This document shows positions 2,787 through 24,533 of a DNA stretch of 27,894 nt, in pieces. Below the pieces are notes generated by a model. The model did not search any database. It saw only the letters and a list, made by a program, of their open reading frames with translations, and was not told the DNA's origin. Position numbers and translations under genes: made by a program. Origin of the DNA: Candidatus Rifleibacteriota bacterium (GTDB lineage Bacteria; Riflebacteria; Ozemobacteria; Ozemobacterales; Ozemobacteraceae); NCBI GenBank assembly GCA_029565415.1, contig JAKQOH010000086.1:1-27894 (forward strand), given 5' to 3'. Each line of letters starts with the position of its first letter. Position 1 is the first letter of the stretch.

Positions 2787-3362
2787 TCAGTCTGACGGCG
2801 GGATATCCTTTCCGCGGCCGGGCTTGGGCGCGAGCCACGCCTGCTGGCCCCGGGAGCATTTCGTGAGCCGGTCGTAGAGCACGACGTTGATGCAGGCGGC
2901 GAGATTGAGGCTGGCCCGGGTCGGAATATAGATCGTGTCGCGGCACCACGAGAGCGTGCGGCGGCCAAGGGTCATGTGCTCGCCGCCGAACACGTAGTAG
3001 GCCAGTTCCGGATGCTCGTATTCGGGCAGGGGGACGGCGTCTTCGACCAGCTCGACAGCGACCGGCACGAAATGGTAGGGCACGGTGAGCCGCAGATCAT
3101 CGACCTCGAGCAGGGGGGTGCGCCGGTACTGGTGGCCCACATCGGTCGAAGCCTTCCGGTAATGCGCCCCCGCGATGGCGATGAGCGAGACGCCGAAACA
3201 GCCGGCGGCCCGCAGCGCGCTTCCGATGTTCTTCGGGTCCTGGGGGTGGTCGATCGCGATGCAGGCCTGGCCCCAGGTGTCGTGGGAGCCGGCGGCGCGA
3301 TCGGCGGCGCAGCGGTCGAGAAGCTGTGCCACGTGTTCATAGGCGGTGTCGGTGTCAGTCAT
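2787..3362 (-). CDS. SpoU/TrmH-family RNA 2'-O-methyltransferase
   Basis: SAM-dependent methyltransferase of the SPOUT class, acting on the ribose of tRNA or rRNA. The 191 residues carry the three family motifs: motif 1 DPKNIGSALRAA (about 42-53, with N45 and R51), motif 2 FGGEHMTLG (125-133, E128), motif 3 IPTRASLNLAACINVVLYDRL (146-166, S151 and N153), which makes the trefoil knot. It lacks the N-terminal substrate-binding domain of RlmB/TsnR types, so it is TrmH/TrmL-like in size. The ATG at 3362 has GGAG seven bases upstream and overlaps the end of the PhnD-like gene by 8 bases, so it is the last gene of the sensor-transporter operon. The exact nucleotide modified is unknown. Confidence 0.88.
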   Translation of the reverse strand: MTDTDTAYEHVAQLLDRCAADRAAGSHDTWGQACIAIDHPQDPKNIGSALRAAGCFGVSLIAIAGAHYRKASTDVGHQYRRTPLLEVDDLRLTVPYHFVPVAVELVEDAVPLPEYEHPELAYYVFGGEHMTLGRRTLSWCRDTIYIPTRASLNLAACINVVLYDRLTKCSRGQQAWLAPKPGRGKDIPPSD

Positions 3363-4332
3363 GCGGTGTCTCCGTTGCGGTGATGGGAAGCGGTGATGAA
3401 GGGGCGACGGCATCGGAAGCGGTGGCCGGCTGGCCGGCGAGCAGCCGCTGGACCTCCTCTTCGGCGGCGAACCGGTCGATGTTGCGCCATTCGGTGAGCG
3501 AGGCCAGCTCATTCCGGGCCGTTGGGTCGAGATGCATGGTCAGAAGCGCGTCGCTGATGCTCGCGAGCAGGGCTGGCGGCAGGTCGTTCCGGATGACGAG
3601 CGGGTCATACGGGATCGGGCCGGTCGTGGCGACATACCGAAGCTGCTCGGCCATGCTGGCGCTCTTGCGGTCGGGGGTGATCGTGTAGACCGCCGCCCCG
3701 TCGTACAGCCCCTTGATGACCCCGTCGATGCTGCTGTCGTGGCTGTGGGTGAAGACGACGCGGCCGAAATAATCCAATGGATATATATTCAACGATGCAA
3801 ACAGCCTGTTCGGGAAGTAGAAGCCCGATCCCGAATTCCGCTCGACATAGGCGAACGTCCGGCCCTTCAGATCGGCCACCGCCTGGAACGGGCTGTCGGC
3901 GCGGACGATGATCTTGCCGAAGTAATCGATGCGGCCCCCCTGCACGGGCCTGCAGATCACGCTCCAGGGTTTGGCGTAGCCGAGATGCTGGAGGGAGGCG
4001 TGGGAGAACCAGGCGATCTCGGCGCGTTTCTCGTCCAGCAGGCGGGCGAGGGTCTCGTAGTCGGCGGCAACGTTGAGCCGCACGGGTCGCTGGAGTTTGC
4101 GGGAAAGATACGAGAGAAGCGGTTCCATCCGGGCCTTGAGCTCGCGCGGTCCGAGAAACGGGATGACGCCGAACACGACGGGTGGCTTCGGATCGATCCG
4201 GAGGGTGACCGGCACGAGCCGGTGGCGCGGTTGCCAGGCAAGAACACCGGCGACGATGAGCAGGATCAGGAGGGTGACCCAGACAACCGCCCGGCCCCGC
4301 CGGACAAGGGAAAGATCGCGGGAAGCGTTCAT
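3355..4332 (-). CDS. Membrane-anchored PhnD-like substrate-binding protein
   Basis: Periplasmic-binding-protein fold of the phosphate/phosphite/phosphonate (PhnD, Pfam Phosphonate-bd) group, 325 residues. Residues 13-33 form one uncleaved membrane anchor with no lipobox, so the protein is tethered to the outside of the inner membrane. The domain runs from about 50 to 300: VFGVIPFLGPRELKARMEPLLSYL, then AEIAWFSHASLQHLGY, the hinge DLKGRTFAYVERNSGSGF, and YDGAAVYTI. No ABC permease or ATPase genes lie near. In many genomes such stand-alone PhnD proteins serve as ligand sensors. The ATG overlaps the stop of the transporter gene by 4 bases. An unusual ATA-TAT codon patch sits near 3780 in an otherwise GC-rich gene. 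The ligand is not predictable. Confidence 0.82.
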   Translation of the reverse strand: MNASRDLSLVRRGRAVVWVTLLILLIVAGVLAWQPRHRLVPVTLRIDPKPPVVFGVIPFLGPRELKARMEPLLSYLSRKLQRPVRLNVAADYETLARLLDEKRAEIAWFSHASLQHLGYAKPWSVICRPVQGGRIDYFGKIIVRADSPFQAVADLKGRTFAYVERNSGSGFYFPNRLFASLNIYPLDYFGRVVFTHSHDSSIDGVIKGLYDGAAVYTITPDRKSASMAEQLRYVATTGPIPYDPLVIRNDLPPALLASISDALLTMHLDPTARNELASLTEWRNIDRFAAEEEVQRLLAGQPATASDAVAPSSPLPITATETPHD

Positions 4333-7160
4333 GATGCGAGATTCTCCTGCGGTCGCAGATAGGCGAGGAGCGCGGCTTCCTCGGCCGGAACGAGCGGGGA
4401 TGCCGGAAGAACGGCTTCCGGAGAAGATTCGGCCGGCAGGGACAGCCCGGAGAGCGCGTTGCGGATATGCAGAACCATGCGGCTCACCTCGTGGGGCAGA
4501 TTGGTTTCGAGGAGCTCCTGGGCGACGGAGCTGGTGAAGGCGTCGGGGCTGCGCAGCCGGTCGAAGGCCGACAGAAGCGTCTCGGGGCGGGGGCCGGCGA
4601 GCAGGACCATGCGGCAGCAGAGCACGGCACGGTCGCTCCAGCGGGAAAGGCCCGTCGCGAGCTCGTCGGCAGACCAGCCCGCTCGGCCGCCGCTCTGCCG
4701 GAGACAGGCCAGGAACTCGGCCTCGCGGATGATGAGCCGAAGCAGGCCGAGCATGCCCTCGTCATCCGGTGTCTGGCCGGGCGGTGTCGGGGAGCTGCCG
4801 ATGACCTGGCGCAGGAGGGGGATCGCGGAGGCCCAATCGGGAAGTTCGGACAGCCGGGGCACCCGGCAGGCTTCCCACAGGGGGGCTGTCGACGGGCTCC
4901 CCGACGGAGCTGCGTGGGTGACGAGACAGGCGCGGAGCAGTTCGACGGTTTCGGGGGTGGCCTGTTCCAGGAGCCGGACGAGCCCCTCGCGTGCTTCGGG
5001 GTGGTCGAAGCTCAGGATGCGGCCGACGATGTCGAGGCCGGCCGAGCCGCCGATCGAGCGGATCGTGTGGCCCAGCTTCTGACGCTCTGCAGCCGTCAGG
5101 CCGTCCATGAGCGACCGGATGCGTGCCAGGCGCTCTTTCGAGGCCTTTTCGACGAGGTTGGCGGCGTGCCGGGCGCGGATCGGATCGGAATGCGCGGCAA
5201 GCCGGTTCAGCGCCGCGAGACCGCCCGAGGTCGGAAGCCGGCCCAGAGCGCGGATCGCGATGCACGCGACATCCGTGTCGGGGTCGTTGGTGAGGGCTTC
5301 CATCGATTCGAGGAAGAGGGGCAGAGCTGTTTCCCCCATGATGGCCGCGGCCGACGCCCGGAACAGGGGGTGGGGCGAGCGGGCCATTCCCGACAGGGTC
5401 GACAGCCCCGCCTCGATACCGCCCGCGTCGCGCGCGAGGCGCAGCATGGCGAGAACGGCGCTTCCCCGGACGCGGTGGTGGTCGTGTTCGAGATACATCG
5501 CGGCCAGCTCCTCGACCGGCAGGCCGCCGTTGGTGCGGCCAAGGGCCTCGAGAAGATCCGCCTGGAGACGGGTGTCGCCGGCCGACTGGAGCAGGCGGGC
5601 GATGTGGGAGACGGCGTCGGCACCGAAGCGCTCCACGGCGAGGCGGGCCAGCGCCGTCAAACAGCGGCTGTCCGTCTCGAGCGAAAGCCTGGGGAAGAGC
5701 AGGAGGCGGAGCGGCCTGTCGGGCAGAAGCTCGATTTCCCCGATCGCCTCGAGGCGGATGACCGGATCCCCTTGGGCGAGCAGCTCCTGGAGCCGCTGCA
5801 GGCGCTCGTTTTCGGGCAAAAAGCCGATCGAGCGCAGGTTCTCGTCATCCGGGGCGGTGCCGGTTCCGGCCAGCGTCTCGCGCAGCGTTGCCGCGTATCC
5901 CTCGTCGATGCGGGAGTGCACGTAGACCATGAGGCCGTAGCAGGCGGCTGCGATCAGGAACAGCCCCCCCACGGGCACGCGGTCGCGCGCGGCGAGCAGC
6001 ACGAGAGAGGCGGTGATGCTCGCCGCCGAGGAGACGGTCGAAATATCGCGCCGGTAGCCGCCGCGGGTGGATGAGGGGAAGGCGCCGAGCAGCAGGGTGG
6101 TGGCGGGCACGGTGAAGTTCTTGCTGTTGAGCAGCACGACGAACTGGGTCACGGCGACCACGATGAAGGCCGGATGCACGGTGGCGGCCAGGCAGAGAAA
6201 CGTCAGCAGGAACGGGGTCAGCAGCAGGATGCGGCCGAGCGGCAGGCTTGCGAACACGCGGTTCATCACGGTTATCTGGAGCGCGATGACGGTGAAGTCC
6301 GCCGCAGCCCCGAACAGGCCGAGGAACGAGGCGATCGCGGCCGCGTCCGCAAAATGGGTCGTCACGGAAACCGAGAACAGGTAATCGATCAGAAACCTGT
6401 TGAACACGATCAGGACGGACGAGGCCAGAAGCAGGACGGCCAGCGGCTGCCGGAACGAGGATGCCGGCGGTTCCGGAACGGCCTGGGCCGCACCCGGGGT
6501 TTTCGTCGTGGGGCCGGCCACGCCTTCCTTGGGGGTGTCGAACAGGCCTATCTGCTGGAGGAGAACGGCGCCGAGGCAGAGAACGGCCGTGTTCAGCCAG
6601 AGCAGGGGCCCGGACCCGACGAAGTCCAGAATGGTTTTCATGAGAATACCGCTCAATATATATCCGGCACTTCCGGCCCCGTAGATGGCCGGCAGGCGGC
6701 GCTTGGCCTCCTGAAGGCTGAGCATCTGGTTCGCCATGGCGGAGAAGGACTGGTTGGTGAGAAGGTCGACGAGCATCGCCCCGACGAGGCCCGCGAGCAG
6801 GGCGCCTCCGGTGGCGAAGCCGGTGGTGAGGCTGGTGGCCACCGAGAACAGCACGACCGGCAGGGAAAGGAACGACAGCATCCAGTGCCCTTCGCGGCCT
6901 TTCAGGCGGCGCACGAAACCATACTGGAGTGCGATGAACGAGACGTTGCCGGCCAGGTAGGCCCAGGGAAGCATCGTCGAGCCGAGATTCTTCAGCAGCC
7001 CGGCAAGCCAGGTCAGATAGAGGACGTTGTTGGTTCCCTTCTGGATCAGGAAAAAGGCGGCGAGAAGCCAGAACAGCCGCGCGCGGTTTGGCGTTGCGGC
7101 CTGGGGAGCGGGTTCCGCCGGGGTCACGGGGCCTTCGACCCGCTGTCGGGGCCGTTCCAT
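4329..7160 (-). CDS. MFS/NTT-like membrane transporter fused to C-terminal HEAT repeats
   Basis: Large fusion of 943 residues. Roughly residues 28-425 are polytopic membrane (about 12 segments), opening with LFWLLAAFFLIQKGTNNVLYLTWLAGLL; layout and style resemble major-facilitator or ATP/ADP-translocase-like proteins. From about 450 to 720 there are repeated helix pairs of HEAT type (RLEAIGEIELLPD, RVRGSAVLAMLRLARD, DVACIAIRALGRLPTSGGLAAL), presumably cytoplasmic, then a less regular helical tail. HEAT fusions are known for NTT-like transporters, but substrate and direction cannot be told. The ATG at 7160 has no SD; a GTG at 7127 overlaps the sensor stop by 4 bases and has AAGG upstream, so the true protein may be 11 residues shorter. 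It is the second gene of the operon. Confidence 0.8.
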   Translation of the reverse strand: MERPRQRVEGPVTPAEPAPQAATPNRARLFWLLAAFFLIQKGTNNVLYLTWLAGLLKNLGSTMLPWAYLAGNVSFIALQYGFVRRLKGREGHWMLSFLSLPVVLFSVATSLTTGFATGGALLAGLVGAMLVDLLTNQSFSAMANQMLSLQEAKRRLPAIYGAGSAGYILSGILMKTILDFVGSGPLLWLNTAVLCLGAVLLQQIGLFDTPKEGVAGPTTKTPGAAQAVPEPPASSFRQPLAVLLLASSVLIVFNRFLIDYLFSVSVTTHFADAAAIASFLGLFGAAADFTVIALQITVMNRVFASLPLGRILLLTPFLLTFLCLAATVHPAFIVVAVTQFVVLLNSKNFTVPATTLLLGAFPSSTRGGYRRDISTVSSAASITASLVLLAARDRVPVGGLFLIAAACYGLMVYVHSRIDEGYAATLRETLAGTGTAPDDENLRSIGFLPENERLQRLQELLAQGDPVIRLEAIGEIELLPDRPLRLLLFPRLSLETDSRCLTALARLAVERFGADAVSHIARLLQSAGDTRLQADLLEALGRTNGGLPVEELAAMYLEHDHHRVRGSAVLAMLRLARDAGGIEAGLSTLSGMARSPHPLFRASAAAIMGETALPLFLESMEALTNDPDTDVACIAIRALGRLPTSGGLAALNRLAAHSDPIRARHAANLVEKASKERLARIRSLMDGLTAAERQKLGHTIRSIGGSAGLDIVGRILSFDHPEAREGLVRLLEQATPETVELLRACLVTHAAPSGSPSTAPLWEACRVPRLSELPDWASAIPLLRQVIGSSPTPPGQTPDDEGMLGLLRLIIREAEFLACLRQSGGRAGWSADELATGLSRWSDRAVLCCRMVLLAGPRPETLLSAFDRLRSPDAFTSSVAQELLETNLPHEVSRMVLHIRNALSGLSLPAESSPEAVLPASPLVPAEEAALLAYLRPQENLAS

Positions 7161-8320
7161 TCACGGCGCCAGATTTCATCCATCAGACGGTGCTTCTCGA
7201 GCGTGGCGGTCATGTCGTTGAAGGCCCGGCACGTCTCGGCCAGCTCGTCGTTCCCCTCGACCGGCAGCCGGTGCGTCACGGCGCCGTTTCCGACCTCGCG
7301 GATGCCGACCGAGAGCCGGTTCAGATGCCCCGCGAGCGGGTGGGCGAGCAGAGCGCCGAACCCTGCCGCCAGCAGCAGCCCGAGGCTCAGCAGGATCGCC
7401 AGATCCTCGAGCAGGTGCATCAGGGGGCCGAGCACTTCCTCCCGGGGCCGCGCCGCGAGCAGATACCCTTGCAGGCGGGAGACGGGCGTGACGACCCCGA
7501 GATACGGCCGGCCCGTCAGTTCGAGCGTGATGGGAACCGGCTCCGATGAAAATGCCGTGACCGTGCCGGTTGCGATGCCCGTCAGACCCTCGGGAAGATC
7601 GTGGCCGCGCGAGGTGATGAGGCTGCCGTTGCGGTCGCAGAGCAGCAGCACGTCGCCCGAGGCGAGGGGGTAGTTCTTGAAGATGTCCATCAGCTCGGGG
7701 CTGTCGAGATTGATCGCGCAGCTCAGAACGCCGATGACCCGCCGCAGCGTCTCGAAATCGAAGATGGGCACCTGCATCACCATCGAGTCGGCGCTGGAGG
7801 AGGTGACGATCTGGTCGGCGAACGTCGATTTCCCGGTTCTGACGGCTGTCAGAAAGGCCTGCTGGGCGGCGACGAGGGAGGGGTTTTTCGCCCCGACCAG
7901 GGTGCGACCGATGTAGAACTCGTCCAGGCCCCGATCCCGGTTCCGATAGGCGAGGTTGGTGATCGTTCCGCTCGCGTCATAGACGAAGATGCTGAACAGC
8001 AGGGGGTTCAGATCCATGAACCGGTACATCGCCTCGAGCTGGCCGTCCCGGTCGAACCGCTGGATCTCGGGCGTGGCGGCCAGCAGGGAAACCTGCCGCT
8101 CGTAGTTGCCGATGACAGCCTCAACGCCGTTCCGGATCGCACCCGTGCGGGTCTTCATCGTGCTGATCGCCTGGCCGACGAGCTCGTCGTGCAACCGCCA
8201 GGCGAGCGCCCCGCCGACGAGCAGCATGGGAACGAGCCCGGCGAGCATCGCCGTCAGGATGACGCGCGTGGCCAGACGTCTATGCCAGGGCAGCTTTCCC
8301 GCCTCGGATGGCGCAGGCAC
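7124..8320 (-). CDS. Cache-HAMP membrane sensor without output domain
   Basis: Membrane sensor of 398 residues: transmembrane segment 16-42, a large extracytoplasmic region (about 45-295) of dCache type (SIFVYDASGTITNL and VPIFDFETLRRVIGVLSCAINL are typical strands), second membrane segment about 304-327, then a HAMP-like linker (326-378, ending CRAFNDMTATLEKHRLMDEI). It stops there: no methyl-accepting, kinase, GGDEF or phosphatase domain follows, and the downstream frame starts a transporter instead. It begins with GTG and a GAGGGGG ribosome site. It is the first gene of a four-gene overlapping operon, so its signal may pass to the transporter-HEAT protein by direct contact. The absence of output is seen; the mode of signalling is inferred. 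Confidence 0.85.
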   Translation of the reverse strand: MPAPSEAGKLPWHRRLATRVILTAMLAGLVPMLLVGGALAWRLHDELVGQAISTMKTRTGAIRNGVEAVIGNYERQVSLLAATPEIQRFDRDGQLEAMYRFMDLNPLLFSIFVYDASGTITNLAYRNRDRGLDEFYIGRTLVGAKNPSLVAAQQAFLTAVRTGKSTFADQIVTSSSADSMVMQVPIFDFETLRRVIGVLSCAINLDSPELMDIFKNYPLASGDVLLLCDRNGSLITSRGHDLPEGLTGIATGTVTAFSSEPVPITLELTGRPYLGVVTPVSRLQGYLLAARPREEVLGPLMHLLEDLAILLSLGLLLAAGFGALLAHPLAGHLNRLSVGIREVGNGAVTHRLPVEGNDELAETCRAFNDMTATLEKHRLMDEIWRREWNGPDSGSKAP

Positions 8321-8359
8321 CTGCGAAGACCCCCTCTCGTTCCCGGTGTTCTGAAGGGC

Positions 8360-8368
8360 AGTATAGCA
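8360..8368 (-). promoter_or_regulatory. Extended -10 promoter for the sensor-transporter operon
   Basis: Minus strand TGC-TATACT: a -10 box (8360-8365) with the TGn extension (8366-8368) and no good -35. Predicted start near 8353, about 33 bases before the sensor GTG. It lies in the 86-base gap after the coiled-coil gene, so the two minus-strand operons can be driven separately. Confidence 0.5.
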
Positions 8369-8406: not shown

Positions 8407-9441
8407 TCAGCGAACGCGCATCGATTCTGCCTCGCGAAGCCCCTCTTCGAGCGCGGCGAGCTCGCTCCGGACGGTTCCGAGTCCGGCGTAGATCGCATCG
8501 GACGAGACCTGGAGCGTCTGCACGTCGGTGTAGGTGAGCGCGTTGAGGCGGTCGTACGTGCCCCGGACCGTTTCCAGGATCTGAAGCCGCTGGACTGCGA
8601 TCCGCCGATGGCAGATATCGAGCCGGTCGAGCTCTTCGAGCCGCTGCCGCTTCATTCCGGCCGTGGCCTCGAGCTGGGAACGGATGACGAGATCGGTGGA
8701 AGCGGCGGCCTCGCCGCTGATTTCCTTCAGCTCGTTCTCCAGCTGCGAACGGTTTGCCTGCGCGAGAACGTTCTGCAGATGGGCGCCGCGCAGGAGCAGC
8801 CGAGCATGATCACGCTGCAGCTCCTCGATCTGGCGCACGGTCTCTCCGAGAACACGCTCGAGAGATGGGTCGGAGCCGTCGAAGAAACTTCTGACCCGCG
8901 CCACATCCGCCTCGAGACGGACGAACTCCTGGAGCTCGGCCTCGCCGATCTGCTCTCTGCCGGATCCTTTCTTTGCCGTCTTCAGCAGGCGCCGGTGAAT
9001 GTGCCGACGGCTGTATGCCGCGCCCAGGAGGGAGCCGGCCGCCCCGAGAACCCGCCCGAGGGGAACCAGCCCCAGCCCCGCTCCCATGGCCGTCACGACG
9101 AGAAGCGAGGCCAGGGCGGCGAGGGAAAGACCGGTTTTGAGCAGGATCAGAGGGGCATAACAGACCGCCATGCCGCCGAACAGCCAGGCCACGCTGCGCT
9201 GGTGCAGCGACGCGAGAAACAGCACGGTGAAGGCGATGAACACGAGGCTGCGCTCGGGATCCTCGATGTGACCTCCATACACTGTGAACACGAGGTAGAG
9301 GTTCACCAGGAATCCGGCGAGCGAGATCAGGGTGTCGGAAACTCCGCCGCGCTGCACGGGTGCTTCCACGGAAAGGGGCGCCGCAACCGGAGCCGACGGG
9401 ATGGGGTCATTGCCTTTCAGGGGAGCGATGTTCCGTGTCAT
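8407..9441 (-). CDS. Membrane protein with long cytoplasmic coiled coil (unknown function)
   Basis: Not recognised. The 344-residue protein has a short polar Pro/Ala-rich head (1-35), four hydrophobic segments at about 36-56, 65-80, 83-102 and 104-127, a basic stretch SRRHIHRRLLKTAKK (144-158, suggesting the inside of the membrane), and then about 180 residues of almost continuous amphipathic helix rich in L, E, R and Q, expected to form a coiled coil. The ATG has GGAGG five bases upstream. It begins 26 bases after the vWA-protein stop and in the same direction, so it is probably co-transcribed and may anchor or sense that protein. No enzymatic motif is visible. Confidence 0.75.
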   Translation of the reverse strand: MTRNIAPLKGNDPIPSAPVAAPLSVEAPVQRGGVSDTLISLAGFLVNLYLVFTVYGGHIEDPERSLVFIAFTVLFLASLHQRSVAWLFGGMAVCYAPLILLKTGLSLAALASLLVVTAMGAGLGLVPLGRVLGAAGSLLGAAYSRRHIHRRLLKTAKKGSGREQIGEAELQEFVRLEADVARVRSFFDGSDPSLERVLGETVRQIEELQRDHARLLLRGAHLQNVLAQANRSQLENELKEISGEAAASTDLVIRSQLEATAGMKRQRLEELDRLDICHRRIAVQRLQILETVRGTYDRLNALTYTDVQTLQVSSDAIYAGLGTVRSELAALEEGLREAESMRVR

Positions 9442-9467
9442 ATGAACCTCCGATTGCGGCTGATATA

Positions 9468-12014
9468 TTAGTTCTGCTTCTGACTCATGGAACTGGTAAC
9501 GGCCTGTTCGGACGGGATCTCCTGGCCTCGCACGAGCGGGCTGGAGTCGACGGGGGCGGTTGCCAGCACCGGCAACTCTTCACTGGCCACGGGGGCCGGT
9601 TCCGGGGCGGGAACGCCGAAGAACAGATCGCGGAGAATCACGAACGGAAGGGTGACGATCTTCCAGGTGAACCAGAGGCCGAGCAGGAAAATCGGCAGGT
9701 TGATCGCGAGACTGACGATCGGATTCAGAACGTTGTTCCAGAGGCGGGTTTCCCAGGGGGTGGCATCCTGATACTGGATCGCCGGGACGGTGGCGGGATC
9801 GTTGCCCTCGACCGCTCCGTGCAGGGCGCAGTAGACGACGCCCGTCCCGCCCAGATCGCCGGAGCTCAGGTAGGCGCAGCGGGTTTCGGGTTTCGAGATC
9901 CCGCCCTTGAGGTAGTTGCTCTGCTGCAGCGCGCCGATGACCTGGTCATCGACCATGCGCAGCGGCTGCTGGTTGTCCATGTTGTACATCTCGACGGCCC
10001 CGAGGATCACGCGCATGTTCGCGTAACAGGCTTTTTCACGGCCCTGCTCGCGGGCCTTGCGGAAATTCGGCACGAGAACGGCGGCGGGGAAGAAGCCGCT
10101 GATGCCCCACGAACCGATCGGCTTGGCCTCCTGCCGCTGCACGACCGTCACGACCGGCCGGGGCTGGCCCGCCTGGGACGGCATCGAGACGGTGGATGCA
10201 TCGGCGGGCATCTGGACCGGGGCAGCCATGGCCTGGACGGGGGCGGGCTGGTTCCAGCCATTCGCGGGCTGATTCGGCTGCACCGCGGCGACCTGTTCGT
10301 GCGAGACCGAGACGAACGAGGTGTAGGAGGTCGTGAACTGCCAGGCCTTGCTGAGGCCGATCACTTCGGCTTTCTTCTCGGGCGTTTCACCGTAGGCGCG
10401 CATCTCCTGGATGAGGGCGTCGGCTTTCGTTTTTGCCCAGACCCGGCCGACAAATTTATTTTCATCACTCTTTTTCACGAATGTCGCCACAACCGGATAC
10501 TGCTGCGGGGAGCCGTTCAGCATGCCCTTGAGCGTCAGACTCGCGACACCGCTGCCCTCATACCGGCCGACGACAACGACCTGGGAACCCTTGTAGACGT
10601 TCGGAATGGTCGAGGGGTACAGGTCCGAAACCTTGATCCCGCCCCAGTCGATCGCGAGGTCCACGAGCAGGGGCTTGCTGATCTTCTCGTAGAAGCCCAT
10701 CAGCTGCGCTTCGAGAGCGTCGTTCTCATGGATACAGATCGATTCGCCGCGGTTCTCGAGCGCCAGTTTGTCGAGCAGGCCGGTGCAGACGTTGCCGCCG
10801 ACACCGAGAGTGAAGGTGCGGATCCCGGCTGTGTTGCGGCTTTTCATGTTCGCGGCGATCGTCTCGAACCGGGTCTCGCCGGAGGTCGGCTCACCGTCCG
10901 TCAGGAAAACGATGGCCTTGGTCGAGGGCGACGCGTCGAACAGGCTCACGGCACGGGAAAGCGCCATGTCGATGTTGGTGCCGCCCATGGCCTCGAGGCT
11001 CGAGACGAACGCCTTGGCCGAGGCCCGGTTCTCGGGGCCGGCATTGGCGAGGGCCGGCTGCCAGACGGCCGCGTCGGTCGAGAAGGAGATCACGTTGAAC
11101 CGGTCGTCGGCGTTGAGATGATCGATGAAGAAGTTGTAGGCGGCCTTCGTCTGCCTGAGCTTGTAGCCGCTCATGCTGCCCGACACGTCGAGCACGAAGA
11201 CGATGTCGCGGGCGACGATGTCGGCGGCGTCGACGACTTCCTGCGGGGCGAGCATCATCATGAAATACCCCTTGTCGCCGTCAACGGGCTTCGTCGAGAG
11301 AAAATTGAATCCCATCCGCTGGGCCTCGACCTCGAACTGGAGCTGGAAGTCCGCGGCCGGCAGCTCTTTCGTCCGTTCGAACGTGACCTGCCAGTGGTGG
11401 TCGTCGATCCGGCGGGCGGCGATCTGGTGCGACGGGCTCTTCACCCCGACGATCCGCTTCTGATCGCGGATGTCGATCACGACCGAGACCAGGTCGAGAC
11501 TGCGCTGCTGGATCTGTGAAATATTCATAGGAATATTGTATCGGATGATACCGCTCGAGTAGTCGAGCACCTCGCTGTAGGTGAGGTCGATCTTCGCCCG
11601 GCCGTTCGGGGGAACGGCGCCGACCTTCGTCTCGAAGCTGTTCGGGTCCGCCTGCTGCGCGATCGCGGGCATGAACCCGGCATCCTGGGCGGCCTGGAAG
11701 GTCTGCTGCGCCTCCTGCTTCTCTTCGATGGCTCCGACCTTGCGGACGCCGTTCGGGCCGGTCAGGCCGAACTCCTGTACCGACGCCTTCTCGCCGAGAG
11801 GGAACCGGTAGGACGCCTCCTGTGCGGTGGCGCCCGGGTTGAGAAAGCTCTGTTCGAGCCGGGTGACGGCGACCTGGTTGTCGATCGTCACGCGCACCCG
11901 CTGCTCGAGCATCGGCAGCTCGCCCGCGTTTCCATACAGATGCATGCCCTCGGCGGGCTGCACCAGGAGTGTGATGGTGACCAGGATCGTGATCAGGGTG
12001 ATCAGACGTGTCAT
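9468..12014 (-). CDS. Exported VIT-vWA protein with pilin-like insert and C-terminal membrane anchor
   Basis: 848 residues. A signal peptide (1-23, ending VQPAEG) precedes a VIT domain (about 25-150, with RLEQSFLNPGATAQEASYRFPL), then a von Willebrand A domain (about 268-440) with an intact metal site: D276-S278-S280 in DVSGS, T346 in GGTNID, D373 in LTDGEPTSGE. After an inter-alpha-trypsin-like region comes a Pro/Gln linker (575-635). Residues 640-735 (FFPAAVLVPNFRKAREQGREKACYANM onward, two later Cys pairs) resemble the body of a type IV pilin or pseudopilin. A membrane helix follows at about 763-795, then a Pro-rich tail. The ATG at 12014 has AAGGAGGT seven bases upstream; the frame runs open much further upstream without support. 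Probably a surface adhesion or assembly factor working with the coiled-coil protein downstream. Confidence 0.9.
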   Translation of the reverse strand: MTRLITLITILVTITLLVQPAEGMHLYGNAGELPMLEQRVRVTIDNQVAVTRLEQSFLNPGATAQEASYRFPLGEKASVQEFGLTGPNGVRKVGAIEEKQEAQQTFQAAQDAGFMPAIAQQADPNSFETKVGAVPPNGRAKIDLTYSEVLDYSSGIIRYNIPMNISQIQQRSLDLVSVVIDIRDQKRIVGVKSPSHQIAARRIDDHHWQVTFERTKELPAADFQLQFEVEAQRMGFNFLSTKPVDGDKGYFMMMLAPQEVVDAADIVARDIVFVLDVSGSMSGYKLRQTKAAYNFFIDHLNADDRFNVISFSTDAAVWQPALANAGPENRASAKAFVSSLEAMGGTNIDMALSRAVSLFDASPSTKAIVFLTDGEPTSGETRFETIAANMKSRNTAGIRTFTLGVGGNVCTGLLDKLALENRGESICIHENDALEAQLMGFYEKISKPLLVDLAIDWGGIKVSDLYPSTIPNVYKGSQVVVVGRYEGSGVASLTLKGMLNGSPQQYPVVATFVKKSDENKFVGRVWAKTKADALIQEMRAYGETPEKKAEVIGLSKAWQFTTSYTSFVSVSHEQVAAVQPNQPANGWNQPAPVQAMAAPVQMPADASTVSMPSQAGQPRPVVTVVQRQEAKPIGSWGISGFFPAAVLVPNFRKAREQGREKACYANMRVILGAVEMYNMDNQQPLRMVDDQVIGALQQSNYLKGGISKPETRCAYLSSGDLGGTGVVYCALHGAVEGNDPATVPAIQYQDATPWETRLWNNVLNPIVSLAINLPIFLLGLWFTWKIVTLPFVILRDLFFGVPAPEPAPVASEELPVLATAPVDSSPLVRGQEIPSEQAVTSSMSQKQN

Positions 12015-12330
12015 GGCCGGACCTCCTTCGGTGTCACTCCCGTCGGCGGTGTCCGCGGTCTGCCTGGCTTCCCTGGCGCGGGGCGAATGATGTGAGGTCG
12101 GAATGAATTCAAAACGATTGGCGCGGGATGCGGGGCCTGCTGCGAACTCCGGGGCGGGGCGAGCAGGTGAAGCGCAACATCCGTACCAGCGGGAAAAATA
12201 GCTGCTAAAATGCGCCTGAGGCGTCATTTGGCGCAGATGACCGGACAGCGGGGTCACACCTCGTGCGTCAGAAGTGACGCGGGGAGGATGCCCGAAGTGA
12301 CGCAGGGAGCCGCCGGGCGGGTGCCGGTTT
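12015..12330. other. Gene-free stretch with small hairpins
   Basis: This 316-base gap separates two minus-strand genes and should hold the promoter of the VIT-vWA gene, but I see no convincing -35/-10 pair. It contains TGCGCC-13-GGCGCA (12211-12235), a GCGTCA-GAAG-TGACGC hairpin (12265-12280) and a repeat of GAAGTGACGC (12271-12280, 12294-12303). No frame with a ribosome site is present. Confidence 0.4.
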
Positions 12331-17485: not shown

Positions 17486-18970
17486 TCAGAGGGTGTCGAG
17501 GACCTTTGTCTGGGCGTTGAACTCTTCGATCAGCTTGTCCCACTGCGGGGCCTGGGCTGCGGCTTCGACCCAGAACTCGGGATCCCACAACTGGTTGATC
17601 TCTTCGAAGGTCTTCCCCTGCTGCTCGACCCAGGTGTAATACTTGAGGTTGTGCAGCTTCTTGCGGTCGTGGTAGCCCAGCTCATGCACGTGCTGGATGC
17701 TCTCGCCGAGCAGGTAGCGTTCCCAGTCGATGACCGCCTGGGTGGAGCTGTATTTCCCGTGCGACTGCTGCAGCTCGGTCAAGCGGGAGCCATACATCTC
17801 GGCGGCATCGGTGAACGGCATGAACAGCACGTCGTTCTCGTCCATCTCGAAGAACTTTGCGGTCTTGATGGCCGAGAGCATGTTGCTGATGCTGCTGATG
17901 CCCATCAGCGGCAGCAGCTTGATGATCTCCTCGGAGATGCCGGCGTCGCGAAGCGCCTTGTGGCCTTCTGGCTCGTTGAACAGGCGCAGGATGCGCATGC
18001 AGTTCTCGTCGTCGACGGCCACGACGCCGTCGGTGTTGCGCACGTTGTGCACCCACGGCACGTGCTTGTCGCCGATGCCTTCGATGCGGTGATCGCCGAA
18101 TCCGTTCCAGAGCAGGGTGGGGCACTGGAGCGCCTCGGAGGCCATGATCTTCGTGTGCGGGAAAAGGGTCTTCAGGTAATCGCCGGCCGCGATCGTGCCG
18201 GCCGAGCCGGTTGCGGAAATCCAGGCCGACAGCCTGTTCCCGGGCTTGGCGATGGCCTTGAACGCCTCCTCGACGGCGGCGCCGGTGACATGATAGTGCC
18301 AGTTATAGTTGCCGAATTCGGCGAACTGGTTGAAGATGACGACCTTGTCGCCGCGGGTCTTGATCAGTTCCCAGCACTTGTCGTAGATCTCCTTCACGTT
18401 CGATTCGCAGCCGGGGGTCGCGATGACTTCGCTGGTGCCGATCTTGCGCAGCCAGTCGAACCGCTCCTTGCTCATGTTCTCGGGAAGGATGGCGATCGCG
18501 GGCGTGTCGAGCAGCGCGCAGTCGTAGGCGCCGCCGCGGCAGTAGTTGCCGGTGCTGGGCCAGACGGCCTTCTGGGTCGTGGGGTCGAACTCACCGCTCA
18601 CCAGACGCGGAACGAGACAACTGAACGCCGCGCCGACCTTGTGGGCGCCGGTCGGGAAATACTTGCCGATCAGGCCGACGATGCGGGCCTTCACGCCGGT
18701 GATCTTCGAGGGCAGCTCGAAACAGTTCACGCCGCCGAACGTGCCGCTGTTCACGTCGTTGTGCCAGCTGATGCGGAACAGGTTGATCGGGTTCACGTCC
18801 CACAGCCCGACGCCCTTCAGCTTCTTCTGCACCTTCTCGGGGATCAGCTTCGGGTTCTTCATCTGGGCGTAGGTCGGGATCAGGATATGTTTTTCATGGC
18901 ACCGCTTCACGGTGTTCGCAAGGACGTCCTTGCGCATCTTGAGTTCGAATTTTTTTGCGTATTTCGACAC
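17486..18970 (-). CDS. Fold-type II PLP-dependent enzyme, probable ammonia-lyase of the purine cluster
   Basis: 494 residues. The PLP lysine is most likely K111 in FPTGAHKVGAAF; STGNYCRGGAY (139-149) is the substrate/cofactor loop, and the glycine-rich phosphate clamp is ATGSAGT (253-259). This is the tryptophan-synthase-beta/cysteine-synthase/threonine-synthase fold. It is about 100 residues longer than diaminopropionate ammonia-lyase (YgeX/DpaL, about 400) and lacks its DGNHGRG form, so it is not a plain DpaL. It sits where DpaL normally belongs beside ygeY, arcC and ssnA, suggesting beta-elimination of an amino-acid product of purine ring cleavage. The GTG at 18970 has AGGAG six bases upstream; an upstream ATG at 19015 lies in a repeat region without a ribosome site. 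Reaction unproven. Confidence 0.82.
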   Translation of the reverse strand: MSKYAKKFELKMRKDVLANTVKRCHEKHILIPTYAQMKNPKLIPEKVQKKLKGVGLWDVNPINLFRISWHNDVNSGTFGGVNCFELPSKITGVKARIVGLIGKYFPTGAHKVGAAFSCLVPRLVSGEFDPTTQKAVWPSTGNYCRGGAYDCALLDTPAIAILPENMSKERFDWLRKIGTSEVIATPGCESNVKEIYDKCWELIKTRGDKVVIFNQFAEFGNYNWHYHVTGAAVEEAFKAIAKPGNRLSAWISATGSAGTIAAGDYLKTLFPHTKIMASEALQCPTLLWNGFGDHRIEGIGDKHVPWVHNVRNTDGVVAVDDENCMRILRLFNEPEGHKALRDAGISEEIIKLLPLMGISSISNMLSAIKTAKFFEMDENDVLFMPFTDAAEMYGSRLTELQQSHGKYSSTQAVIDWERYLLGESIQHVHELGYHDRKKLHNLKYYTWVEQQGKTFEEINQLWDPEFWVEAAAQAPQWDKLIEEFNAQTKVLDTL

Positions 18971-19005
18971 GTTGGTCTCCTGTCTGTTGTTGTCGGACGG
19001 ACCTT

Positions 19006-19093
19006 GGAACACCACCGAGGCACAGAGACACAGAGAATAAAATTATATGTACGAATGTAATATCTCTGTGTCTTCGTGTCTCTGTGGTGTTCC
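19006..19093. repeat. Palindromic repeat (CACAGAGACACAGAG type)
   Basis: Arms of 31 bases (19006-19036 and 19063-19093) match at 27 positions as inverted copies, around an AT-rich centre of 26 bases. The core CACAGAGACACAGAGA/TCTCTGTGTC resembles a short palindromic element common in intergenic DNA of environmental bacteria. It splits arcC from the PLP gene and may reduce read-through or stabilise the upstream mRNA. Confidence 0.85.
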
Positions 19094-19104
19094 TGGCGTA
19101 TGAA

Positions 19105-20064
19105 TCACGGGTACACGTGCGTTCCGGCCTGGCCTTTGACGGCGCGGGCGAGGTTCTCGGGGTTCGTGATGATCGCGTGCTTGCCGCCCGCGCGCAGGAA
19201 GCTCAGGACCGCCTTGCACTTGGGAAGCATCGAGCCCGGCTTGAAGTGGCCTTCCGCGATGTATTTCTCGAGTTCGAGCGCCGTGCACTTGTCGAGGGCC
19301 TTCTGATCGGGCTTGCCATAGTTCAGATACACCTTCTCGACGGCCGTCGAGATGATGAAGGCGTCAGCCTTGAGATTCTTGGCCAGCAGGCCCGAGGCGT
19401 AGTCCTTGTCGATGACCGCCGCGGCGCCCTTGAGCATACCCTTCTCGTCACGCACGACCGGCACACCGCCGCCGCCGACCGCGACCACGACGAAGCCGCG
19501 CTCGGCCAGCGTCTTGATCGAGTCTTCCTCGACGATTTCCTGGGGAAGAGGCGACGCGACGACACGCCGCCAGCCGCGGCCCGCGTCTTCCATGATCTCC
19601 CAGCCTTCTTTCTCCTTGCGTGACTTGGCCTCGGCCTCGCTGTAGAACTTGCCGATCGGCTTCGTGGGCTTGAGGAACGAGGGATCGTCCTTGTCGACGA
19701 CGACCTGCGTGACGACCGTCACGACGTTCTTCTTGATGCCGCGCTTCTTGAACTCGTTCGCCAGCGCCATCTGGAAGTTGTATCCGATCGCGCCCTGGGT
19801 GTCGGCCACGCAGGAATCGAGCGGGACGGGATGGATCTGGGAGATCGACAGATCGCTGCGCAGCAGGATGAAGCCGACCTGCGGCCCGTTGCCGTGCGTC
19901 ACGACGACGTTGTACCCGGCTTCGATCATGTCGGCGATGTGCACCATCGTATTGCAGGCGGCCTGATACTGGTCGGCCACGCTCTGGCGCTTGTCATCCT
20001 GGATCAGGGAGTTGCCGCCGACGGCGACGACGGCCAGTTTGCTGGTCTTCGGTTGTTCGGTCAT
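19105..20064 (-). CDS. arcC: Carbamate kinase
   Basis: Converts carbamoyl phosphate and ADP to ATP, ammonia and carbonate; in fermentation of purines or arginine it is the ATP-yielding last step. 319 residues, normal for the family. Visible signatures: LAVVAVGGNSLI (N-terminal phosphate loop), VVVTHGNGPQVGFILLRSD (family motif), VPVVRDEKG, AAAVIDKDYASGLLA and VYLNYGKPDQ of the amino-acid-kinase fold, and a PGSMLPKCKAVLSFL motif near the end. The ATG at 20064 (AGGAA four bases off) is preferred over 20091, which has no ribosome site. It lies 54 bases after ygeY and before the palindromic repeat. In E. coli the related gene yqeA lies in the yge cluster; no carbamoyltransferase is in the window, so its carbamoyl-phosphate source is not shown. 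Confidence 0.93.
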   Translation of the reverse strand: MTEQPKTSKLAVVAVGGNSLIQDDKRQSVADQYQAACNTMVHIADMIEAGYNVVVTHGNGPQVGFILLRSDLSISQIHPVPLDSCVADTQGAIGYNFQMALANEFKKRGIKKNVVTVVTQVVVDKDDPSFLKPTKPIGKFYSEAEAKSRKEKEGWEIMEDAGRGWRRVVASPLPQEIVEEDSIKTLAERGFVVVAVGGGGVPVVRDEKGMLKGAAAVIDKDYASGLLAKNLKADAFIISTAVEKVYLNYGKPDQKALDKCTALELEKYIAEGHFKPGSMLPKCKAVLSFLRAGGKHAIITNPENLARAVKGQAGTHVYP

Positions 20065-20118
20065 GGGTTCCTGTTTTCCTTTCGGTGTCATAGAAAGATA
20101 TCTATGGCTATTGAAACG

Positions 20119-21321
20119 TCACTTCTTGAGCGCCAGCGGCAGCATGGCGTAGAACTCGGCGCACTTCACGACCTCGGCGAGCGGCACCTGGTCGTTCACG
20201 GTGTGCGCGTGCACCTCGTTGCCGGGCCCGAAGCCGATTGAGGGGATGTTCGCCTTGCCCATCCAGTAGGTGCCGTTCGTCGAGAACACCCACTTGTCGA
20301 CCACCGGCTCCTTGTTGTCGTGGCAGGCCTTGTAGGCTTCGACGCCCGCGGAGACCAGCGGGTGCTTCGGATCCAGGGCCCACGGCGGATAATACTTGCT
20401 GACCGGAAAGACGAAGCCGGTGTAGCTGGGCACGTCATAGAACAGCTCTTCGACTTTGCCGTTCTTCATGCTGGGCAGCGACTCGAGCTCCTTGATCGAC
20501 GACTCTTCGTTCTCTCCGAAGGTGAGGCGCCGGTCGAGGTAGATCGTGCACTCGTCGGGAACCGCGTTCAGGCTGGGGGTCTTGCACTCGATCTTCGAAA
20601 CGACGATCGAGCCCTTGCCCAGGAACGCGTCGTCCTTGAACATGTGGGACATCTTGCTGATCTCGTCAATGATCGGGGTCATCTTGTAGATCGCGTTGTC
20701 GCCGCGCTCGGGGGCCGAGGCGTGGCAGGTGCGGCCCTTGGTCGTCACCTTCAGCTCGACGCGGCCGCGGTGGCCGCGGTAGATGCGCATGCAGGTCGGC
20801 TCGCCGATGACGACGAAGTCCGGCTTGATCTTTTCGGTCTCGACGAGCGAATGCGGGGCGATGCCGTCGCACTCCTCTTCCATGTTGCCGAAATAGTACA
20901 GGCTATACCCGTCGAGCAGCTTGAGATCCTTCAGGATCTTGAGGGCATACACCATGCCGGGGGTCGAGCCCTTCTCGTCGCAGGCGCCGAGCGCATACAG
21001 GATGCCGTTCTCGACCTTGCCCTTGAAGGGGTCCCATTTCCACTGGGTCGGGTCGGCGATGCCGACGGTGTCGATGTGGCTGTCGAATACGATCTTGATG
21101 GGGCCGTTACCGACGCGGCCGACCGAGTTGCCCATCTTGTCGACGAACACCTCGTCGAACCCGAGCTTCTTCATCTCGTCGTTGATGCGCTTCACGACAT
21201 CACCGATCTTCGATTCGTAGCTCGGAATCGCGCAGATGTCCCGCATGAACTGGATCATCGCCGGCTCATGCTTCTTGACTTCGGCCTGGATCTTTTCAAT
21301 CATGCCCTTGTCGATCTTCAT
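20119..21321 (-). CDS. ygeY: YgeY-type M20 metallohydrolase (selenium-linked purine cluster)
   Basis: 400-residue dinuclear zinc hydrolase of the M20/ArgE/DapE fold. Metal and catalytic residues: H82 and D84 in FDSHIDTV, D115 in GACDEKGST, E148/E149 in GNMEEECDG, E174 in VIGEPT, H373 in GPGNEVHAHTVND. The WKWDPFKGKVENGILYALGACDEKGS stretch and the DRRLTFGE segment are those of YgeY proteins, which occur beside selenium-dependent molybdenum hydroxylases and, in recent work on gut bacteria, are needed for urate breakdown. Proposed job: hydrolysis of an N-acyl or ureido intermediate of purine ring opening. It follows ssnA by 30 bases and precedes arcC. Cytoplasmic. Family call firm; exact substrate not. 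Confidence 0.92.
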   Translation of the reverse strand: MKIDKGMIEKIQAEVKKHEPAMIQFMRDICAIPSYESKIGDVVKRINDEMKKLGFDEVFVDKMGNSVGRVGNGPIKIVFDSHIDTVGIADPTQWKWDPFKGKVENGILYALGACDEKGSTPGMVYALKILKDLKLLDGYSLYYFGNMEEECDGIAPHSLVETEKIKPDFVVIGEPTCMRIYRGHRGRVELKVTTKGRTCHASAPERGDNAIYKMTPIIDEISKMSHMFKDDAFLGKGSIVVSKIECKTPSLNAVPDECTIYLDRRLTFGENEESSIKELESLPSMKNGKVEELFYDVPSYTGFVFPVSKYYPPWALDPKHPLVSAGVEAYKACHDNKEPVVDKWVFSTNGTYWMGKANIPSIGFGPGNEVHAHTVNDQVPLAEVVKCAEFYAMLPLALKK

Positions 21322-21351
21322 GTGGTGCTCGCTTTCCTTGTCTTCGTGTAT

Positions 21352-22689
21352 TCAGAACCGTTCCCACAGGGAACGGGCCAGTTCGCGGGATTTCGCGCAC
21401 ATCTCGGCTTCCTCGCCATCCGCCAGGAAGGTGATTTTGCCGTCGTCGTAGATCTTCTTGCCGCGGCAGATCGTCGTGTTGACCGTCGCGCCGGTGAGGC
21501 CGAACAGCATGTGGCCCAGCGTGTTGCCGGCGTTGATCGGGGTCGGGGGCTGGTAGTTCCAGATGACCATGTCGCTGGCCGCGCCTTCCTCGAGCATGCC
21601 GATCGGCGTCTTGAAGATGTTCGAGGCCAGGGCCGGGTTGCTCTGGGAATACATTTTCCATACTTCCCCGTATGCTTTGCGCGGGTCGCCGGCCTGATGC
21701 TTGTGCAGGATATTCGCCAGGGCGAAATCCGGCAGCGGCGACGGCGACATGCCGTCCGTGCCCATCATGACCGGGACTTTTTCCCTCATCATCAGCTCGA
21801 TGTTCGCGCAGCCGACCGCATTGTTCATGTTCGAGCGCGGGTTGTGCACCACGTTGGTGCGCGTGAGCGCCAACGTATGGATGTCCATCTCGTCGACGTG
21901 GACGCAGTGCGCGAAAATGCTGTCGGAGCCGGTGAGCCCGACCCGGTGCAGCCGGTCGATGACCGAGCGGAAGCCGCGCCGCCGGGCGTCCTCGAGATCG
22001 GCCTTGTCTTCGCAGACGTGGATGTGGCACCCGACCTTGAGGCCCTTGGCCAGCTCGGCGGCCCGCGCCAGCGTCGAATCCTCGATCGTCATGCTCGCAT
22101 GCAGACCCATCATCGCGGCCATGTCGGGATCGCTGTCGAGCTTGATGCCACGGATGAAGTTCGCGTTCTCCTCGAGACCCGCGTCACGCCGCGACGCGCC
22201 GTCACGGTCGGAAACCTCGTAGCAGAGACAGCCGCGGAGCCCGCATTTCCGGAAGGCCTGCTGCAGCGTGCTCAGCGAACCGCCGATGGCGTGCGGGCTT
22301 GCGTGATGGTCGATCAGCGTCGTGACGCCCGAGCGGGCGGCTTCGATGAGCGGGATCATCGCGGTCAGATACAGGTCATCGGGTTTGAGGGCCTTGTCGA
22401 GCCGCCACCAGAGGCGCTCGAGGATCTGCACGAAGTTCTCGGGCGGGGCGTCTTTCAGGGCGATGCCGCGCGCGAAGGTCGAATACAGGTGCATGTGCGC
22501 ATTGATCAGGCCGGGCGTCAGCAACAGCCCGTTCGCGCTCTCGAATTTCGCCTTGGGAAACCGTTTCCTCAGCTCGTCCGTCGTTCCGACGCCGTGGATC
22601 TTCTTCTCGTCGAAAGCGACCGCGCCGTCCTCGATCACCTGATGGTTGGTGCCGAGCGTCGCTACCGTAGCATGTCCGATGATCTTCAT
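21352..22689 (-). CDS. ssnA: SsnA-type amidohydrolase
   Basis: 445-residue amidohydrolase-superfamily protein, close in layout to E. coli SsnA (442). Metal ligands: H65 and H67 in NAHMH, H222/H224 in GCHIHVCED, H261 in AHCVH, D312 in GTDGMS. SsnA hallmarks are WWRLDKAL (94-101), TTLIDHHASPHAIGGSLSTL (123-142), HNPRSNMNNAVG and PPTPINAGNTLGHMLFG. It is a deaminase-like or ring-hydrolase enzyme of the purine/selenium cluster; its substrate is not settled. The ATG at 22689 has GAGGTG five bases upstream. A strong promoter lies about 170 bases upstream (22865-22893), so it heads the ssnA-ygeY-arcC block. Confidence 0.93.
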   Translation of the reverse strand: MKIIGHATVATLGTNHQVIEDGAVAFDEKKIHGVGTTDELRKRFPKAKFESANGLLLTPGLINAHMHLYSTFARGIALKDAPPENFVQILERLWWRLDKALKPDDLYLTAMIPLIEAARSGVTTLIDHHASPHAIGGSLSTLQQAFRKCGLRGCLCYEVSDRDGASRRDAGLEENANFIRGIKLDSDPDMAAMMGLHASMTIEDSTLARAAELAKGLKVGCHIHVCEDKADLEDARRRGFRSVIDRLHRVGLTGSDSIFAHCVHVDEMDIHTLALTRTNVVHNPRSNMNNAVGCANIELMMREKVPVMMGTDGMSPSPLPDFALANILHKHQAGDPRKAYGEVWKMYSQSNPALASNIFKTPIGMLEEGAASDMVIWNYQPPTPINAGNTLGHMLFGLTGATVNTTICRGKKIYDDGKITFLADGEEAEMCAKSRELARSLWERF

Positions 22690-22827
22690 CCATTCACCTC
22701 GGGTAAAAGTATCCCTCTTGCCTAATGCCAAAACGGCGATCCGTCACAGACGTTCGCCGCTCCTGTTTCATATCATGGAATATATGGTGCAGGGGACCAC
22801 ACCGTTCATCCCGTTCCTTGTCGTTCT

Positions 22828-22857
22828 GTCCCTTTTCTCATCTCGGGGGAAAAGGAC
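22828..22857 (-). promoter_or_regulatory. Hairpin at predicted 5' end of ssnA mRNA
   Basis: On the minus strand GTCCTTTTC (22849-22857) pairs with GAAAAGGGAC (22828-22837), one bulged base, loop of 11. It begins at about +1 of the predicted transcript. The leader continues about 140 bases more to the ATG and holds a second small stem CGGCGA/TCGCCG (22733-22759). Such a 5' hairpin may protect the RNA or be part of a leader control. Confidence 0.5.
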
Positions 22858-22864
22858 TGGCCGA

Positions 22865-22893
22865 ACTCTACCATACCCCCCGCCCATTGTCAA
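22865..22893 (-). promoter_or_regulatory. ssnA operon promoter
   Basis: Minus strand: perfect -35 TTGACA (22888-22893), 17-base spacer, -10 TAGAGT (22865-22870). Start expected near 22858. This places a 170-base untranslated leader ahead of ssnA, in the otherwise gene-free 22690-23118 stretch, which also holds the repeat at 22951-23067. Confidence 0.75.
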
Positions 22894-22950
22894 AACTTGC
22901 GATCGGGCAGATCGAACAACCGCCGGGCCAAAAAGAAGAACAAGAAAACG

Positions 22951-23067
22951 ATCCGCAGATGACACAGATGTCGCAGATAGAATCACTGGCATTATAGCAT
23001 TGATCGGGCCACGGGGCCGCCCCTGTGCTGGGAAAGATCATCTGTGCCATCTGCGCAATCTGCAGAT
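22951..23067. repeat. Palindromic repeat (CGCAGATGACACAGATG type), copy 1
   Basis: Arms of 28 bases (22951-22978 and 23040-23067) agree at 22 positions as inverted copies, built from the unit .GCAGAT. repeated in register. The centre is about 60 bases with a GC-rich core. A related single arm lies at 24685-24712 (25/28 to the left arm). It sits between the 8-oxoguanine deaminase stop and the ssnA promoter. Confidence 0.82.
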
Positions 23068-23118
23068 CGTCCTCCTTCGGCGTTCGTCCGGTCTCTGGGA
23101 TTCGAGCGTTCTTCGGGG

Positions 23119-24492: not shown

Positions 24493-24527
24493 TCCCATTC
24501 CTCCGTGGTGGTTTGTTTCAAGCCCCG

Positions 24528-24533
24528 ATTCTA
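24528..24533 (-). promoter_or_regulatory. Possible -10 of the 8-oxoguanine deaminase gene
   Basis: Minus-strand TAGAAT, 36 bases before the ATG; the hexamer 17 bases upstream (TGCCCG) is a poor -35, so an activator may be required. The rest of the gap, 24534-24847, shows only the repeat arm at 24685-24712. Confidence 0.3.

Follow-up and report, generated by a model that had tools for sequence, protein, structure and literature searches.

Three of the four overlapping genes at this locus constitute, on the evidence of comparative sequence analysis, a conserved cassette, encoding a Cache-HAMP sensor that ends without an output domain, a transporter in which an NTT (ATP/ADP-carrier-type) domain is fused to HEAT repeats, and a PhnD-like binding protein. 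In the window, by which we mean the whole stretch of 27,894 nucleotides that was analysed, the genes lie on the minus strand in the order sensor, NTT-HEAT, PhnD-like protein and SpoU-type methyltransferase (Table 1). The overlaps at the sensor/NTT-HEAT, NTT-HEAT/PhnD and PhnD/SpoU junctions are 37, 4 and 8 bases, respectively, the last of these holding only if the SpoU gene begins at the ATG at 3362 and not at an alternative upstream ATG at 3512. This anatomy bears out the four overlapping genes described in a first-pass annotation of the sequence, with the start of the sensor at 8320, not 8368. Pfam scanning of 19 window proteins, from the region between positions 2787 and 26130, detected no ABC ATPase or permease family, in agreement with the earlier description of a PhnD-like gene without ABC partners, and among the same 19 proteins there was no response regulator and no cNMP_binding domain. 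Promoter and terminator scans gave results at about chance level.

Table 1. Positions of the cassette genes, their domains and the adjoining SpoU gene in the window.
Feature	Position	Strand	Basis or remark
Cache-HAMP sensor without output domain	7124..8320	-	398 aa; dCache_1 and HAMP (Pfam)
HAMP domain of sensor, residues 325-375	7196..7348	-	PF00672, 36.4 bits
C-terminal tail of sensor, residues 376-398, with Trp 384 and Trp 388	7127..7195	-	W384 invariant in 30/30
NTT-HEAT protein, 943 aa	4329..7160	-	HEAT_2; profile relatives with PF03219; model and fold match
Membrane domain of NTT-HEAT, residues 24-416, NTT/MFS fold	5913..7091	-	twelve long helices in model
HEAT solenoid of NTT-HEAT, residues 439-907, presumably on the cytoplasmic side	4440..5846	-	HEAT_2; helical repeats in model
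PhnD-like binding protein, 325 aa, with N-terminal hydrophobic anchor	3355..4332	-	PF12974, 185.6 bits; hydropathy
S-G-S-G of PhnD-like protein, residues 167-170, putative oxyanion-binding loop	3823..3834	-	S-x-[ST]-G motif
SpoU-type RNA methyltransferase, passenger	2787..3362	-	SpoU_methylase, 54.2 bits (Pfam)

A genome-contig search under six patterns returned one relative, a Candidatus Ozemobacteraceae MAG (locus L001), in which the gene order is that of the window: VWA, a gene like that of the 344-aa protein, sensor, NTT-HEAT, PhnD and SpoU. Among the 39 whole genomes searched of the phylum of G001, the genome of L001, the profile of the 943-aa family identified 39 core NTT-HEAT places (E at most 1e-100) distributed over 25 genomes, a count that stands apart from the window, L087 (a divergent class) and one of the two L090 gene pieces, and that takes as two places L053 and L076, which are probably opposite ends of a single G007 gene split between contigs. 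The source names of the phylum's profile matches were mostly Riflebacteria, Ozemobacter and Ozemobacteraceae, with one Cloacimonetes. We read the DNA around all 39 core places with profiles of the three cassette families, and found a co-oriented Cache-HAMP gene immediately before NTT-HEAT at 35 of the 36 places that could be tested on that side (L039, L062 and L076 being untestable), the sole exception being L051, where a core NTT-HEAT stands without a sensor. A PhnD-like gene lay within 3.5 kb downstream at 23 of 34 testable places and was absent at 11, where L047, L048, L050, L053 and L056 were untestable, and where the places counted include L061 and L069, which end less than 1 kb downstream, and L068, which has a gene between NTT-HEAT and PhnD. 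The sensor and NTT-HEAT were both kept at all of the 11 places without PhnD apart from L051. With starts assigned automatically and the window included, the sensor/NTT-HEAT junction was overlapping in 23 of 32 cases measured (L090 not counted), and the NTT-HEAT/PhnD junction overlapped by exactly 4 bases in 15 of 23, which is the usual form for coupled translation. Several genomes carried two to four cassettes or core places.

Outside the phylum, the full cassette with a core NTT-HEAT was present in at least one of 247 genomes (G227), a lower bound because only the best six or three candidates per genome were scored among the 286 relatives (39 of the phylum and 247 others); a phylum search from G227 led to two other-phylum genomes. 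The protein searches each scored approximately 8000 candidates. No output-less Cache-HAMP gene was found in the flanks examined of 12 more distant NTT-HEAT places outside the phylum, one distant place (L102) has a HAMP protein with a kinase-like end, and no relative was found on viral contigs. The order sensor, NTT-HEAT, PhnD is repeated in many genomes, more than chance would give, and the repeated placement of the sensor beside the transporter suggests that the sensor acts directly on it. The proposal of the first-pass annotation is supported in part, in that sensor, transporter-HEAT fusion and PhnD recur together, and the neighbourhood search, by finding the order in many genomes, disposes of the counter-possibility raised there that the gene order is unique to one genome.

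The surrounding genes were far less constant. The RNA methyltransferase had also been claimed as a member of the unit; L001 was the one locus of the 39 searched at which a SpoU gene adjoined the cassette, and we reject it as a fourth component. The sensor gene is preceded, on its own strand, by genes for a VIT/VWA protein and for a 344-aa protein that Pfam does not match (window 8407-12257). Of the 39 loci searched, only L001 and L040 also have them, with other genes in between at L040, and they are therefore a lineage feature at most and were discarded as components. The neighbours scanned, one or two per locus, shared no signalling or output enzyme: L001 and L040 have GDPD encoded on the opposite strand, and elsewhere we found TPR (L043), SpoIID (L060), AMP-binding/MFS (L063) and protein kinase (L075) genes, an RHS-repeat gene (L068) and an ArsR-type regulator (L073). 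At L064 an ABC ATPase gene directly follows NTT-HEAT, and for this reason an ABC partner may exist at that locus. At two loci a protein of approximately 960-980 aa with an N-terminal PNP_UDP_1 domain (nucleoside phosphorylase superfamily) is encoded after PhnD in the same operon (L052:4421-7306 and L067:11844-14798), which is perhaps a hint of a nucleoside or nucleotide link.

HAMP domains are familiar from kinases, cyclases and chemoreceptors. In the window sensor, Pfam scored dCache_1 at 43.5 bits, slightly below the cut-off of 45, and found no domain after HAMP; among 30 aligned sensors HAMP was present in all, dCache_1 in 26, and an output domain, kinase included, in none, which confirms the earlier reading of a sensor that ends after HAMP. 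All 37 core sensors (35 of the phylum, that of the window and that of L097) stop 15-33 residues after HAMP, and all 37 possess an aliphatic-Trp pair within 18 residues of the HAMP end, taken in this test as profile position 372; W-x3-W occurs in 25 of them. As controls we took 20 long HAMP proteins from the phylum, with open frames between 564 and 2257 aa, and none had the pair at the tail position; about half of these controls are mutually close relatives, and Pfam did not name their output domains. The first-pass annotation had also raised the possibility of a sensor kinase frameshifted in this assembly. With an output domain in 0 of 30 relatives, and a short Trp tail stopping 15-33 residues past HAMP in 37 of 37 core sensors, we reject a frameshifted or truncated kinase. 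Comparison of the sensor with PDB sequences gave only three matches, all chemoreceptors, and a single-sequence AlphaFold model of the sensor was discarded (mean pLDDT 43.1).

A second group of output-less Cache-HAMP proteins (L077-L085) is mixed with respect to Trp. Those of L079-L082 and L085 are without Trp, and no HEAT gene adjoins them; that of L078 has Trp and is followed by a HEAT_2 membrane protein. Trp is likewise present at L083, where the gene adjoins a distant NTT-HEAT relative recognised by Pfam as MFS_1 only, and at L077 (a contig end) and L084, where no HEAT gene was seen beside the Trp-tailed sensor. Most sensors of this group adjoin a metallophosphoesterase-like gene upstream, and at four to five of the loci a repeat-rich protein of glycine-zipper/plectin type is encoded downstream of the output-less Cache-HAMP gene. 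At L086-L088 an output-less Cache-HAMP protein beside a divergent NTT-HEAT has Phe instead of Trp, its tail reading MKDVFGF; the divergent NTT-HEAT, of 1211 aa, precedes the sensor at all three loci (L086:2591-7400, L087:4340-9154, L088:5109-9923).

The assignment of the transporter draws on profiles and on structure prediction. Pfam recognised HEAT_2 in the 943-aa window protein, and no Pfam model recognised its membrane part; TLC matched at E 0.01 in one of 27 members, the window protein being unmatched. Searches with the family profile extend to PF03219 proteins that bear the name ATP:ADP antiporter. With a profile of the membrane domain, AtNTT1 (E 6.9e-12) and one further ADP,ATP carrier were matched, roughly half of that domain being covered. 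An AlphaFold2 model built from 23 sequences (mean pLDDT 80.1, pTM 0.56) has twelve long helices at residues 24-416 and helical repeats from residue 439, and a Foldseek search with this model returned AtNTT1 and Chlamydia pneumoniae NTT1 first and then other MFS transporters, the top three matches being NTTs. This NTT/MFS fold, together with the HEAT_2 match that every one of the 27 aligned members has after its NTT domain, substantiates the transporter-HEAT fusion that had been claimed. A cNMP_binding domain was found in none of the 27 aligned members, and was present in two more distant NTT-HEAT proteins scanned. Across 20 divergent members, seven positions of the membrane domain do not vary, and 19 of the 20 have an acidic residue where AtNTT1 has the Glu of its LVEVTW stretch. 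Nucleotide exchange has been shown for single-domain NTTs.

NTT-HEAT and NTT-HEAT-cNBD fusions were described by Major et al. (2017; excerpts of PMC5381601), according to which they range from Cyanobacteria to Chlamydiae and oomycetes and the interplay of NTT and HEAT is unknown. Part of the wider family has a cNBD, either joined to the HEAT part or in a gene next door. The cassette protein resembles the fusions of these excerpts in having an NTT-type membrane domain followed by HEAT repeats, but differs from them in the absence of a cNBD from all 27 aligned members, and in its neighbours, an output-less Cache-HAMP sensor encoded separately upstream and, in many cases, PhnD downstream; the excerpts make no mention of either partner.

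The best solved relatives of the PhnD-like protein are ArrX (E 4e-38), PtxB and PhnD, with AioX further down. Its strongest hydrophobic stretch in the window, residues 15-33, is by hydropathy a predicted N-terminal anchor, consistent with the membrane tether originally proposed for the third protein. A lipobox was present in 4 of 20 cassette PhnD proteins and a strong N-terminal hydrophobic stretch in most of the others; that of L097 has a weaker stretch, which could be a cleaved signal. The motif S-x-[ST]-G, which we take to be the oxyanion-binding loop in PhnD relatives, occurs in all 20 of the proteins examined (19 aligned and that of L097), and we infer that the cassette proteins bind a ligand of the oxyanion or phosphonate type. 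PhnCDE and PtxABC are ABC importers of phosphonate and phosphite. These importers share a PF12974 binding protein with the cassette, whereas in the window no ABC ATPase or permease was found among the 19 proteins scanned, and the PhnD-like protein is tethered, as predicted, and stands beside NTT-HEAT.

We compared the distances of the three proteins among cassettes, leaving aside L087, L090 and L097, and set the correlations against swaps in which partners were reassigned within genomes holding several cassettes. The NTT-HEAT/sensor correlation was 0.871 over 35 cassettes, reached by none of approximately 1000 swaps (maximum 0.869); that of NTT-HEAT/PhnD was 0.915 over 24 cassettes, reached by 1.2% of swaps; and that of sensor/PhnD was 0.862 over 21 cassettes, reached by no swap. 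The nearest out-of-genome neighbour was the same cassette in 15 of 18, 10 of 12 and 7 of 10 comparisons for these pairs, respectively. In the 21 three-gene cassettes, the partial correlation of PhnD and sensor given NTT-HEAT was 0.18 (bootstrap -0.07 to 0.44), compared to 0.65 for PhnD and NTT-HEAT given the sensor (0.37 to 0.84) and 0.55 for sensor and NTT-HEAT given PhnD (0.34 to 0.79), values to be read with the provisos that distance pairs are non-independent and that longer proteins yield less noisy distances, which may favour NTT-HEAT as hub. Within NTT-HEAT, PhnD had its higher partial correlation with the membrane domain (0.63, as against 0.34 for HEAT), and the HAMP-tail region with HEAT (0.32, as against 0.05 for the membrane domain), the interval of the latter difference (-0.11 to 0.54) including zero. 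The covariation thus fits an arrangement around NTT-HEAT as the hub, with PhnD paired to the NTT domain and, by a weak contrast, the HAMP-tail region to HEAT.

We favour, at about an even chance, a model in which the three proteins form a membrane unit around NTT-HEAT as its hub, with the sensor gating NTT-HEAT by its tail and PhnD presenting an oxyanion-type ligand. The Cache domain would sense an outside signal, and HAMP would relay the change to the Trp tail. The tail would dock on the solenoid that the HEAT repeats form in the NTT-HEAT protein made along with it; HEAT would in turn gate transport through the NTT domain, or make the carrier's state readable. Ligand binding outside may thus change the transporter, as the first-pass annotation proposed. 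From outside, the NTT domain could be served by the PhnD-like protein, which would capture an oxyanion-type ligand, such as phosphate, phosphonate or similar, and deliver it at the outer face of that domain. The sensor would take the place of the cNBD as regulatory input to the HEAT part. Since no signalling enzyme is common to the neighbours examined, it is more likely that the HEAT part receives the sensor's own tail than that it recruits a further protein, with an unlinked partner as a possibility. Weighing against the model are the core NTT-HEAT of L051 with no sensor, the 11 of 34 places with no PhnD, the Trp-tailed sensors of L077 and L084, the membrane part that Pfam does not recognise, and an AtNTT1 match restricted to about half of the membrane domain. 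More tentatively, the cassette may represent a new mode of transmembrane signalling, in which the transporter, of the nucleotide-carrier type, has a HEAT solenoid that directly takes up the short Trp peptide at the end of the HAMP relay, while the anchored PhnD-type protein feeds or triggers the carrier from outside.

The PhnD-like protein could also act by way of the sensor. In AioXSR, according to excerpts of PMC5908839, the loaded binding protein is thought to be a ligand of the sensor kinase, and a relay of this kind, in which ligand-loaded PhnD docks on Cache and the sensor switches NTT-HEAT or an unlinked partner, would accord with ArrX as the best solved PhnD relative, with the recovery of AioX, and with the PhnD/sensor correlation of 0.862 that no swap reached. 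The AioXSR and ArrXSR systems of these excerpts resemble the cassette in that a PhnD/PtxB-like binding protein is encoded with a membrane sensor, but the cassette has NTT-HEAT in place of a histidine kinase or response regulator, with no kinase in any of the 30 aligned sensors, and its PhnD covaries more with NTT-HEAT than with the sensor, the PhnD/sensor value dropping to 0.18 given NTT-HEAT while PhnD/NTT-HEAT stays at 0.65 given the sensor. Moreover, 11 of 34 places do without PhnD and keep sensor and NTT-HEAT (except L051, with neither sensor nor PhnD), and we regard such a relay as rather unlikely. Information could instead flow from transporter to sensor, with NTT-HEAT (together with PhnD) reporting substrate or flux to the sensor, and an unlinked output binding the tail or HEAT. 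There is a precedent in DctA and DcuS, where excerpts of PMC8307970 place the sensor-transporter contact near the membrane-proximal linker; both systems have an outside ligand-binding sensor working with a transporter, the contact in the cassette being a presumed one, and sensor and NTT-HEAT do covary. DcuS, however, is a kinase in its own right, whereas none of the 30 sensors here has an output domain, and no output enzyme is common to the neighbours scanned; we judge this direction of signalling to be unlikely.

It is improbable that the sensor acts in trans, with ordinary HAMP kinases or chemoreceptors as its partners, and adjoins NTT-HEAT for joint expression only. These genomes do contain many HAMP proteins, and two related sensors (L077 and L084) carry the Trp tail although no HEAT gene was seen next to either, but the sensor covaries specifically with NTT-HEAT, lies next to it at 35 of 36 places, and has a Trp tail found in 0 of the 20 long HAMP proteins tested. 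Genome compaction can create overlapping genes, and the fourth gene (SpoU) is indeed a passenger; even so, it is highly improbable that unrelated genes came together here by chance, or that a frameshift cut the sensor short, in view of the 35 of 36 neighbourhoods, the 37 of 37 tails, the cassette outside the phylum and the swap test.

Our literature search, conducted in open-licence PMC papers, found no report of a Cache-HAMP/NTT-HEAT/PhnD assembly, as the first-pass annotation had supposed in knowing of no named system with this gene set, and none of an output-less HAMP sensor whose conserved Trp tail is tied to a transporter. The parts are of known kinds, the NTT-HEAT fusion being published, and the combination appears new as far as that literature extends. 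If the more tentative reading of a relay plugged into HEAT is true, an outside signal would gate transport without phosphorylation, a second messenger or a transcription step, and paralogous cassettes could give a cell several differently tuned sensor-gated transporters. The sensor-gated model would also imply that a HAMP domain can end in a transporter-docking peptide. For one NTT-HEAT subfamily, the cassette offers a testable answer to the role of HEAT, as receiver of a sensor tail, and the invariant Trp provides a handle for breaking the sensor/HEAT link.

Two other regions of the window contain features of separate interest. A 137-base direct repeat occurs at 749-885 and 2563-2699, the copies being 87% identical; the second copy duplicates part of the 3' end of ORF 9-875, and small ORFs that by eye are toxin-antitoxin-like lie between the copies (1118-1519, 1516-1791 and 1993-2262). 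On the minus strand at 17486-24600, genes for a PALP enzyme, an amino-acid-kinase family protein, an M20 peptidase and two amidohydrolases stand in a row and perhaps form a catabolic operon.
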